From: Cyclobacteriaceae bacterium | GTDB taxonomy: Bacteria; Bacteroidota; Bacteroidia; Cytophagales; Cyclobacteriaceae | NCBI GenBank assembly: GCA_026129485.1 | Contig: JAHCHY010000012.1 | Span: 62,001-126,000 of the forward strand | Length of the DNA stretch: 64,000 bases | Direction of reading: 5' to 3' | Part shown: piece after piece, positions 44,431 through 45,260 of the stretch | Position numbering within the stretch: the stretch's first letter is position 1 | How the letters are laid out: each line of letters begins with the position of its first letter | Program-made: the position numbers and the translations under genes | Notes under the pieces: model-generated | What the model saw: only the letters and a program-made list of their open reading frames with translations | Told to the model about the DNA's origin: nothing | Database searches by the model: none

Positions 44431-44462
44431 CTCCGCAGTTTTTTTGAAAAAAACAGGCACGT

Positions 44463-44493
44463 ATTGGATATTTGGCATCGGCTATTAAATTTG
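44463..44493 (+). promoter_or_regulatory. Promoter of the tRNA-Gly / GIY-YIG unit
   Basis: ATTG (44463-44466), 19 bases, TAAATTTG (44486-44493) fits the Bacteroidota consensus with one mismatch in the -33 box. It lies 16 bases before the truncated tRNA copy. No separate promoter is seen before the intact tRNA, so truncated copy, nuclease gene and intact tRNA-Gly are probably one transcript. Confidence 0.65.
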
Positions 44494-44504
44494 CAGTCCC
44501 ATTT

Positions 44505-44535
44505 AATAAGCGGGAGTAGCTCAGTTGGTAGAGCA
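44505..44535 (+). repeat. 31-bp direct repeat, left copy (partner 44817-44847)
   Basis: AATAA followed by the first 26 bases of the tRNA is repeated exactly at 44817-44847, 312 bases downstream. In the right copy AATAA includes the stop codon of the GIY-YIG gene. The repeats bracket the nuclease gene and mark the unit length of the inserted element. Confidence 0.85.
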
Positions 44536-44566
44536 TCCCGATGGCCATCGGGAGGGTCGCAAGTTC
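44510..44566 (+). pseudogene. Truncated tRNA-Gly copy with replaced anticodon arm
   Basis: Bases 44510-44535 equal the first 26 of the intact tRNA-Gly. The anticodon arm is replaced by the palindrome TCCCGATGGCCATCGGGA (44536-44553); the variable and T-arm start GGGTCGCAAGTTC then matches the intact gene except one base. The T-arm 3' strand and the acceptor 3' strand are missing, so it cannot form a normal tRNA. The loop still contains GCC, the Gly anticodon. Confidence 0.85.
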
Positions 44567-44578
44567 ATTGAAGGTAAT

Positions 44579-44821
44579 ATGTTTGTTACTTACATATTAT
44601 ATTCAGAATCCGGAGATCGCTATTATATAGGACATTCGGAGAATCTGGAAGCAAGGTTGAATGACCATAACGATGGCAGGGTAAAGTCAACAAAAGGCTA
44701 TAAGCCTTGGAAAGTTGTATATTTCGAAGAATTTAGTACCAAACTTGAAGCCAATCGAAGAGAATTGGAAATCAAGAAAAAGAAGAGCAGAAAGTATATT
44801 GAGTTTCTGATCTTAAAATAA
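44579..44821 (+). CDS. GIY-YIG nuclease family protein inserted between tRNA copies
   Basis: The 80-residue protein starts at the ATG at 44579 (MFVTYILYSESGDRYYIGHS). It is a minimal GIY-YIG domain: YIL-x10-YYIG, the ARLNDHNDG helix with Arg, and a C-terminal helix TKLEANRRELEIKKKKSRKY. The frame stays open upstream to a TTG at 44525 inside the truncated tRNA (VEHPDGHREGRKFIEGN), so a tRNA-fused longer product is possible but less likely. GIY-YIG domains cut DNA, and some act as homing endonucleases. Its position between a mutilated and an intact tRNA-Gly, with its stop inside the direct repeat, suggests it drives the spread of this unit. Confidence 0.88.
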   Translation: MFVTYILYSESGDRYYIGHSENLEARLNDHNDGRVKSTKGYKPWKVVYFEEFSTKLEANRRELEIKKKKSRKYIEFLILK

Positions 44822-44894
44822 GCGGGAGTAGCTCAGTTGGTAGAGCACGACCTTGCCAAGGTCGGGGTCGCGAGTTCGAGTCTCGTTTCCCGCT
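44822..44894 (+). tRNA. tRNA-Gly (GCC)
   Basis: The 73-base cloverleaf has acceptor GCGGGAG/TTCCCGC with one G-T pair, D arm GCTC/GAGC, anticodon arm CGACC-TTGCCAA-GGTCG, T arm GCGAG-TTCGAGT-CTCGT and discriminator T. CCA is not encoded. It follows the GIY-YIG stop codon immediately. Confidence 0.96.
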
Positions 44895-44897
44895 CAA

Positions 44898-44929
44898 AAC
44901 CCCTCTCCGATAGAGAGGGGTTATTTTTT
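44898..44929 (+). terminator. Intrinsic terminator after tRNA-Gly
   Basis: AACCCCTCTC (44898-44907) and GAGAGGGGTT (44913-44922) form a perfect 10-bp stem with a 5-base loop, then ATTTTTT. It lies three bases after the tRNA. Confidence 0.9.
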
Positions 44930-44939
44930 AAAAAAGTCT

Positions 44940-45034
44940 GCCCGGGTGGTGGAATTGGTAGACACGTCCCGATAAAAATCGGGATGGATAGTAATAGTTT
45001 TACGGGTTCGTTCTTTATTTAGATTGAGTACCCC
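44940..45034 (+). pseudogene. Truncated tRNA-Leu copy with replaced anticodon arm
   Basis: The first 27 bases equal those of the intact tRNA-Leu. Then TCCCGATAAAAATCGGGA (44967-44984) stands where the intact gene has CAGGACTTAAAATCCTG, followed by TGGATAGTAATA and ACGGGTTCG of the variable and T arm. The T stem and acceptor 3' strand are lost. The loop still contains TAA, the Leu anticodon. Unlike the Gly case, no nuclease gene lies between this copy and the intact tRNA. Confidence 0.85.
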
Positions 45035-45049
45035 AAGCAATTGATAATT

Positions 45050-45135
45050 GCCCGGGTGGTGGAATTGGTAGACACGCAGGACTTAAAATCCTGTGGATAG
45101 TAATATCTGTACGGGTTCAAGTCCCGTCCTGGGTA
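45050..45135 (+). tRNA. tRNA-Leu (UAA)
   Basis: An 86-base class II tRNA: acceptor GCCCGGG with CCTGGGT (two G-T pairs), anticodon arm CAGGA-CTTAAAA-TCCTG, long variable arm, T arm ACGGG-TTCAAGT-CCCGT, discriminator A. It begins 15 bases after the visible end of the truncated copy. Confidence 0.95.
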
Positions 45136-45149
45136 CTTTAATCAACAGG

Positions 45150-45188
45150 AAGTCATCATCAGTCTTAGTATTGGTGATGACTTTTTTG
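45150..45188 (+). terminator. Intrinsic terminator after tRNA-Leu
   Basis: AAGTCATCA (45150-45158) pairs with TGATGACTT (45175-45183), followed by a run of T residues. It ends the tRNA transcript. Confidence 0.85.
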
Positions 45189-45260
45189 TTTGTCCTGTTT
45201 TACCTGAAAACAAGCGGTAAAATGGGGCCTTGATACACATTAGGTTCGCATTTCTATCAA

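Follow-up and report, generated by a model that had tools for sequence, protein, structure and literature searches.

Small GIY-YIG nuclease genes beside tRNA genes and broken, hairpin-bearing tRNA copies in Bacteroidota chromosomes: a probable parallel of phage SegB

The closest described system to the element studied here is SegB, a free-standing GIY-YIG nuclease that lies beside tRNA genes in phages T4 and T6. SegB is reported to cut inside tRNA genes, with the motif RAWTSGAAC enriched at 23 of 83 sites, and a 718-bp unit of tRNA-Tyr and segB is tandemly amplified, with microhomology linking the 5' end of the tRNA to the 3' end of segB, a process needing nuclease activity and recombination genes (PMC13096335). 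That study searched phage and archaeal-virus proteins and reports no favoured isotype (PMC13096335). Here we analyse a stretch of 64,000 nt (the window) from Cyclobacteriaceae bacterium GCA_026129485.1 (contig JAHCHY010000012.1, positions 62,001-126,000; genome of 4.08 Mb in 40 contigs), in which a GIY-YIG gene lies between a broken copy of tRNA-Gly and the intact tRNA-Gly. SegB is a functional parallel of this element: both have a free-standing GIY-YIG gene beside tRNA genes and tandem repeats of tRNA plus nuclease gene. Unlike SegB, the element here is chromosomal, encodes only 80 amino acids, is sorted by tRNA isotype and is accompanied by a broken tRNA in which a hairpin recurs. Its nuclease would presumably cut as SegB does.

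Four other systems are comparable in part. The UPF0213 proteins 1zg2 and 1ywl are the closest solved structures by sequence, and the descriptions consulted state no tRNA link or mobility. Slx1, the next-best fold, acts on branched DNA according to its entry title, but is a eukaryotic repair enzyme with the partner Slx4 and belongs to no mobile unit. The REP/BIME sequences with their Y1 transposases (RAYT) likewise combine a small nuclease-like gene with short palindromes scattered in the genome, whereas the genome studied here gave no Y1 match. Finally, islands integrating at tRNA genes also restore the tRNA and leave a displaced part, but the unit here is about 312 bp at the Gly locus, has no integrase and displaces either the 5' or the 3' part. 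Among the matches listed in the open-licence PMC literature, judged by titles and abstract openings, no such elements were recognised in bacterial chromosomes.

The tRNAs of the window were identified by ARAGORN and Rfam, their copies by a repeat search and the open reading frame (ORF) by Pfam, with some readings made by eye (Table 1). On the + strand, the order is the 5' tRNA-Gly copy, a palindrome, 13 tRNA-like nt, a 12-nt leader, the GIY-YIG ORF and the intact tRNA-Gly, and a second broken copy, without an ORF, lies upstream of tRNA-Leu. The first-pass annotation of this DNA had described each intact tRNA as following a copy of its own first 26 (Gly) or 27 (Leu) nt, the 17-nt anticodon arm of each copy as replaced by an 18-nt palindrome, and the nuclease stop codon as lying inside a 31-bp direct repeat; all three points hold, with both copies 100% identical and both palindromes exact. 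It had also described the copies as losing the T stem and the 3' acceptor strand. The acceptor strand is indeed gone, but 13 nt (12 of them identical) remain after the palindrome in the Gly copy and 25 nt (88% identity) in the Leu copy, and the tRNA likeness of both stops at ..GTTC, the start of the T loop. Its suggestion that the Leu copy is a remnant deprived of its nuclease is possible: an ORF-deleted copy occurs elsewhere (locus L065), but no ORF remnant is seen by eye in the 40-bp spacer and copies lacking an ORF occur frequently. The pair of palindromes exceeds chance: allowing up to 2 mismatches, the window holds 2 against 0.12 expected, a number reached in 1 of 100 shuffles. The RNA folds of the broken copies are uninformative (z of -1.08 for the Gly copy and -1.43 for the Leu copy with its spacer); in the predicted fold of the Gly copy (44510-44553, with that z of -1.08) the tRNA 5' strand CGGGA pairs with UCCCG of the hairpin.

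Table 1. Features of the tRNA-Gly unit and the tRNA-Leu copy, in window coordinates
Feature	Position	Strand	Basis
Candidate -7 box TAAATTTG of the native tRNA-Gly promoter, of the TANNTTTG type	44486..44493	+	Sequence; leader matches element-free relatives
Left copy of the 31-bp direct repeat (5 nt of native leader and tRNA-Gly nt 1-26)	44505..44535	+	Repeat search
First 26 nt of tRNA-Gly repeated in the broken copy	44510-44535	+	100% identity
18-nt palindrome TCCCGATGGCCATCGGGA in place of the anticodon arm of the Gly copy	44536..44553	+	Sequence, pattern search
Broken Gly copy, variable loop and 5' T stem/loop, ending ..GTTC	44554..44566	+	12/13 identical to the intact tRNA, by eye
12-nt leader of the nuclease ORF	44567..44578	+	Comparison with two relatives
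GIY-YIG nuclease ORF, 80 amino acids and TAA	44579..44821	+	PF01541 E 1.4e-18; structure model; purifying selection
Nuclease stop codon TAA	44819-44821	+	Inside the second copy of the direct repeat
Right copy of the 31-bp repeat, spanning the nuclease stop and running into the intact tRNA-Gly	44817..44847	+	Repeat search
Intact tRNA-Gly (GCC)	44822..44895	+	ARAGORN, Rfam
Terminator-like hairpin and T run 3' of tRNA-Gly	44897..44930	+	By eye
tRNA-Leu nt 1-27 in the broken Leu copy	44940..44966	+	100% identity, repeat search
18-nt palindrome in place of the anticodon arm of the Leu copy	44967..44984	+	Pattern search
Broken Leu copy, variable arm and 5' T arm, ending GGGTTC	44985..45009	+	25 nt, 88% identity, repeat search
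40-nt spacer between the Leu copy and tRNA-Leu	45010..45049	+	No nuclease ORF remnant seen by eye
Intact tRNA-Leu (TAA)	45050..45136	+	ARAGORN, Rfam

Related genomes show the tRNA-Gly site both empty and occupied. A tRNA-Gly query matched all 40 genomes of the genus; 30 loci were read, 28 of them with the exact tRNA, and in three of these 28, belonging to the own genome and to relatives equated with OLB12 and SSA6, the nuclease lies directly upstream, within the 110 bp 5' of the tRNA that this reading covers. Two alleles (L148 and L152) are element-free and have the leader CTATTAAATTTGCAGTCCCATTTAATAA, identical to that of the window, directly before the intact tRNA-Gly, showing that in the window the broken copy stands directly behind the native promoter, with the insert separating the intact tRNA from it, just as had been proposed from the window. 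A third allele (L150) has the same leader followed by an ORF-less Gly copy with the palindrome in its D loop. In the loop of the terminator hairpin 3' of tRNA-Gly, the palindrome TCCCGATAGCTATCGGGA is found in L148 and L150 and is missing in L152. As regards homing or transfer, presence at tRNA-Gly is patchy, and a Gly clade of the nuclease unites Cyclobacteriaceae with Mucilaginibacter (support 88 in the Shimodaira-Hasegawa-like approximate likelihood-ratio test, SH-aLRT).

The linkage of the nuclease to tRNA genes extends through the genome, its relatives and the phylum, in line with the first-pass proposal of a nuclease unit living in tRNA genes. All four homologues found in the own genome (E 0.001) adjoin tRNAs, namely Gly, Pro(CGG), Leu(GAG) and a site between Ser and Arg. 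A wider set of loci (L013-L125) was composed of 33 loci from homologue searches and the best 80 of 111 confirmed matches of a scan of genome contigs, two genomes being present twice (L017/L018 and L046/L047). Of its 130 ORF hits, 103 have a tRNA called by ARAGORN within 400 bp, and for 87 the distance is at most 150 bp; the strand is the same in all. A few of these calls are broken copies; those overlapping the ORF (L058, L062, L072, L083, L111 and L120) probably are, and they were retained in these counts and excluded from the layout-side count of the tree set and from the breakpoint, hairpin and anticodon-loop analyses. The 16 loci without a call within 500 bp mostly show, by eye, a partial tRNA at a contig edge, by a run of N, or as a lone 3' half. 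For the bias of best hits, 60 further regions were chosen by hand down the list of hits lacking a locus, a choice neither complete nor random; of the 58 re-found, 45 have a tRNA within 500 bp and 37 within 150 bp, without any opposite-strand case. The nuclease is present (E 1e-7 or better) in 88 of 198 Bacteroidota genomes drawn evenly, and 26 of 29 new best-match loci lie within 500 bp of a tRNA, all of these on the same strand. On the whole, the nuclease gene adjoins its presumed target, of which an intact copy remains. Outside chromosomes, we found one unverified 5.9-kb phage record (41.8% identity, no tRNA call in the 5.1 kb read), while the plasmid search gave no carrier and none was confirmed among viral contigs.

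The nucleases also cluster by tRNA isotype. On a tree of 114 proteins (85 columns, SH-aLRT support only, with some isotype labels set by hand and 3 rows unlabelled) the isotype changes 24 times, compared with a minimum of 17 and a mean of 52.8 in shuffled labels, and none of 200 shuffles is as low. The 57 Ala-linked proteins account for 2 changes against 37.2 shuffled. The four nucleases of the own genome are mutually distant, and its Gly nuclease groups with a Gly-linked Mucilaginibacter protein rather than with them (support 88).

The protein belongs to the GIY-YIG family, with a PF01541 match and with Y16, R26, H30, A58 and E62 invariant across 62 nuclease sequences, residues which we take to have catalytic roles. 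By sequence, the clear relatives in the Protein Data Bank (PDB) are 1zg2 and 1ywl alone (E 1.3e-5 and 8.8e-5). A structure model of the 80 residues (pLDDT 97) places the UPF0213 protein 1zg2 first in a fold search (E 7e-4), followed by Slx1 (6sei, 9e-3, and 7cq3), with the UvrC domain (0.96) and I-TevI (1.1) far weaker, so that the protein resembles the solved UPF0213 proteins in both sequence and predicted fold; no NCBIfam model matches at E 0.001, no UPF0213 model having been tested by name. Between the own and OLB12 genes there are 8.67 synonymous changes over 46.3 sites and 5.33 nonsynonymous changes over 193.7 sites, thus the ORF is under purifying selection. In contrast with the ORF, which differs at 14 (own and OLB12) and 16 of 243 sites among the own, OLB12 and SSA6 genomes, the 69 nt of leader, broken copy and palindrome have no difference in the three, although the first 26 of these are tRNA-like and could stay identical by conversion from the intact tRNA. 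Such constancy, together with the promoter upstream of the broken copy, could fit a hairpin that acts in cis as an RNA element, separating or tuning the processing of nuclease mRNA and tRNA, the layout being kept for expression and not for mobility. We consider this improbable, since in the downstream layout described below the hairpin comes after the ORF, and ORF-less arrays retain it.

The palindrome is by no means confined to the two window copies, which had been named as the point where the proposal could fail. The own genome has 12 exact copies (0 for the reversed pattern), of which three, by eye, lie in 5' tRNA copies, those of Gly, Leu and additionally Ala (C1:110690), and nine elsewhere. 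Within 130 bp of the ORF, the pattern [TC]CCCG..CGGG[AG] is found at 71 of 111 loci (22 upstream and 62 downstream), compared with 0 of 192 control windows 670-800 bp away and 2 of 115 called intact tRNAs, both of which (L044 and L057) are hairpin copies by eye. Other loci carry other hairpins, of the CCTGCCTG..CAGGCAGG or TCCGCC..GGCGGA types (by eye). In the phylum sample, the pattern at the anticodon position occurs in 37 of 198 genomes, 31 of them nuclease-positive. One locus was read from each of the 37: in 22 a separate intact tRNA lies on the same strand within 600 bp, all 22 genomes are nuclease-positive (88 of 198 overall) and 13 of the 22 loci are ORF-less; four more (L249, L260, L272 and L278) are tRNA-like by eye and from nuclease-positive genomes, and another 10 look unrelated to tRNA. 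Thus hairpin-bearing broken copies go with the nuclease, with one likely exception (L253). One of these loci, L278 (genome G122), is a full-length called tRNA-Gly(ACC) with the anticodon stem TCCCG/CGGGA, and may be a genuine tRNA or else a hairpin copy that is complete.

Palindrome numbers follow the nuclease as well. Any palindrome is present in 54 of 88 nuclease-positive and 33 of 110 negative genomes, and at least three in 33 of 88 and 11 of 110, counts that ignore kinship and are inflated by the palindromes inside the units. Within the genus, the correlation of nuclease and palindrome counts is weak (rho 0.30, p 0.07); in 58 genomes including the own, rho is 0.58 with the nuclease count and 0.14 (p 0.30) with Y1 transposases. 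A Y1/RAYT enzyme as the mover of the palindromes was rejected for this genome on this lack of correlation and on 0 Y1 matches in the own genome.

The stem of the hairpin is kept in one clade while its loop drifts. A first count used ten loci picked by the hairpin pattern, which itself fixes most of the stem, and was repeated without the pattern, whereby 11 of 12 Flavobacterium-clade ORFs could be placed (all except L080). In these 11 Ala copies, the 14 stem positions have 0 of 770 pairwise differences (outer 0/550, inner 0/220) and the 4 loop positions have 53 of 220, with 2 of 4 columns variable; at fourfold sites, by comparison, ten of the ORFs give 271 differences in 680. Such constancy argues that the hairpin matters. 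Among all 57 Ala-linked ORFs, the site was placed in 36, with at least 6 of 7 pairs in 30 of the 36, and the stems vary between TCCCGAA/TTCGGGA, TCCCGCA/TGCGGGA, CCCCGAA/TTCGGGG and CTCCGAA/TTCGGAG. We also tried the idea that the anticodon loop is kept from the parent tRNA and rejected it as weak: 49 unique loops score 3.41 against 2.78 (standard deviation 0.24), with 5 of 2000 permutations as high, in a set that is Ala-heavy (26/49) and includes L057, whose called tRNA is a hairpin copy.

These results bear on an ordinary origin, in which tRNAs are duplicated in tandem and the broken copies gather REP-like hairpins as neutral debris, the nuclease being an incidental passenger. The nine palindromes away from tRNAs, the palindrome in the terminator loop and the frequency of ORF-less arrays would all agree with it; the strong tRNA linkage and strand bias, the unchanged stem in copies located without the hairpin, the nuclease in all 22 genomes with hairpin copies near tRNAs and the palindrome counts that track the nuclease and not Y1 transposases do not, and we regard it as unlikely. 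Another possibility, which we put forward tentatively, is a GIY-YIG counterpart of RAYT/REP that has made its home in tRNA genes: a Slx1-like nuclease specific for hairpins or branches would recognise the TCCCG-stem hairpin, move it among stem-loops (anticodon arm, D loop, T loop and terminator loop, the positions in which hairpins are seen), and mobilise its own unit of tRNA part and ORF as well as ORF-less copies in trans.

The units occur in two layouts. In the upstream layout, that of the window, the promoter is followed by the tRNA 5' part, the ORF and the intact tRNA; in the downstream layout (L038 and L113, for example) the intact tRNA and a terminator are followed by the ORF, the tRNA 3' part and a terminator. 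Both can be repeated in tandem, with the ORF in L030, L038 and L060 and without it in L113 (three copies), L115 (seven, upstream of one tRNA) and L124 (four). The tRNA and the gene are often interlocked: the ORF stop is the TAG of the tRNA D stem in 36 of 114 ORFs, Ala-linked proteins end in ISSAG or similar read from the D arm of tRNA-Ala (L058, L087 and L112, for example), and in L025, L039 and L049 the stop lies within the intact tRNA itself. Matches to tmRNA at some loci were discarded as tRNA-Ala-like ends by eye. An integrase-type island remnant at tRNA genes is brought to mind by the downstream layout, in which intact tRNA, insert and displaced 3' part resemble attL/attR; such an origin is very improbable, as the unit is one 80-aa gene, the window displaces the 5' part, tandem units repeat precisely, and the GIY-YIG ORF takes up the space between the Gly copies, leaving none for an integrase gene.

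The breakpoints do not support the first-pass proposal that the element cuts at the anticodon arm and inserts its own arm. Of the 5'-type copies found by seed search, the 41 on tRNAs of 73-79 nt were scored, as raw counts, apart from a further 6 on long tRNAs: 28 of the 41 end at positions 52-63, about the T loop, and the other 13 outside this range; per locus, at least one end falls there in 18 of 25. These copies thus lack the 3' acceptor strand. Most 3'-type copies have lost the acceptor 5' strand, their starts falling just behind it, at positions 6-12, in 36 of 45 rows (four rows are the two copies of L088, each counted twice). Since the hairpin is found in several loops, some layouts carry hairpins of other sequence and the breakpoints lie mostly off the anticodon arm, cutting at this arm and insertion of an own arm are unsupported as stated.

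Some loci depart from the two layouts. In Runella zeae (L065:1440-2541), a broken tRNA copy and ORF are followed by a second broken copy with the 3' end of the ORF alone and by a tRNA 5' part that breaks off at the CAT anticodon, and a group I intron lies beyond it (2288-2541); this is an ORF-deletion derivative beside what may be an intron-split tRNA, its 3' half not having been found. In L064, L066, L069 and L081, tRNA-Ala 3' halves starting from the anticodon arm come after unrelated DNA and before nuclease units (by eye), and look like att sites of genomic islands that have parted the unit from the tRNA 5' half.

We lean, with some reserve, to the reading that the unit is a selfish, isotype-matched element made of a free-standing GIY-YIG gene and a partial tRNA gene and working like SegB. 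The reverse complement of the SegB motif is GTTCSAWTY, to which the T loop GTTCGAATC conforms, the region in which most 5' copies end, and this fit and the SegB parallel suggest that the nuclease of the chromosomal element, too, would break its tRNA gene. A nuclease lineage matched to one isotype would break that tRNA gene, most likely in the T-loop region, and recombinational repair on a copy bearing the unit would duplicate the partial tRNA and nuclease gene. One tRNA copy would stay intact, the other keeping its 5' part where the nuclease lies upstream or its 3' part where it lies downstream. The leftover copy, as a rule without one acceptor strand, would carry a hairpin, in many cases TCCCG...CGGGA where the anticodon arm should stand, and this hairpin may either disarm the copy or be what the enzyme recognises. 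Where the nuclease gene lies upstream of the intact tRNA, the native tRNA promoter would drive its transcription.

Several observations weigh against this reading. Isotype clustering alone can also come from vertical descent, the tree has few columns and hand-set labels, and vertical inheritance with loss may also account for the distribution. The fold is closer to UPF0213 and Slx1 than to I-TevI, which makes a structure-specific enzyme as likely as a sequence-specific one. Among the 58 re-found regions, 13 have no ARAGORN tRNA within 500 bp; four of these (L179, L188, L192 and L193) hold a partial tRNA by eye and L180 is a contig edge, and L169, L181, L205, L208, L212, L213, L214 and L215 are unlinked to tRNA. 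There are almost no phage or plasmid carriers, and L253, from a genome without the nuclease at E 1e-7 (G106), is likely a decayed hairpin copy of the Val type. The breakpoint count depends on the alignment, has almost a third of its ends outside 52-63 and includes non-independent copies within arrays; two rows of L044, where the ORF directly follows the intact tRNA-Pro and a hairpin copy behind the ORF was called as a tRNA, had that copy as reference, and without them 27 of 39 ends fall within 52-63. Some hairpin copies look full-length (L260, L269 and L278, by eye). Finally, as regards protection of the element's own allele from cutting, 5'-type broken copies mostly lack the half that bears the T loop, but the intact tRNA retains any cut site.

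The arrays could instead be useful to the host: broken tRNAs might act as decoys for tRNA-cutting toxins or phage defences, or counter them through dosage, and the nuclease would serve to multiply them, as SegB multiplies tRNA-Tyr in phages. The seven copies of L115 would suit such a role, and in phage T6 the SegB-driven amplification of tRNA is reported to defeat Septu (PMC13096335). We think this improbable, as presence at one tRNA is patchy (three of 28 at Gly) and most copies have neither the anticodon arm nor one acceptor strand, and would be poor tRNA mimics.

The SegB-like reading concerns some of the most conserved DNA targets, as a minimal element would enter tRNA genes yet leave an intact tRNA, sit behind the tRNA promoter and often borrow the tRNA stop codon; its nuclease was detected in 88 of the 198 Bacteroidota genomes of the sample. 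Such an element would be a genomic parasite of a little-known kind, at home in tRNA genes that survive its presence. If true, the reading would account for numerous small GIY-YIG genes and for the broken-tRNA arrays, and would extend the SegB type of tRNA amplification from phages to chromosomes. Two questions become testable, namely whether there is one nuclease per tRNA isotype and whether the nuclease is able to move hairpins between stem-loops.

A few minor observations may be added. The loci L205, L208, L212, L213, L214 and L215 (genomes G009, G019, G020, G007, G008 and G002, respectively) hold weaker GIY-YIG relatives unlinked to tRNA. A C-terminal NP.W.DL stretch is common to all of them except L208 (by eye), and repeats surround some of them, GTCATTGCGA-like in L212 and L215 and AAACCCATACCGCG in L205 and L214; they look like a separate branch that has made dispersed repeats its home. 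At L181:531-840, a GIY-YIG ORF of the family lies between 26-nt inverted repeats (92% complementary) and has the look of a very small insertion sequence; the 1.4 kb around it gave no tRNA call. Elsewhere in the window, at 41553-41653, a SAM riboswitch (Rfam RF00162, E 5.2e-21) lies upstream of an ORF that presumably encodes an enzyme of the cystathionine gamma-synthase type.

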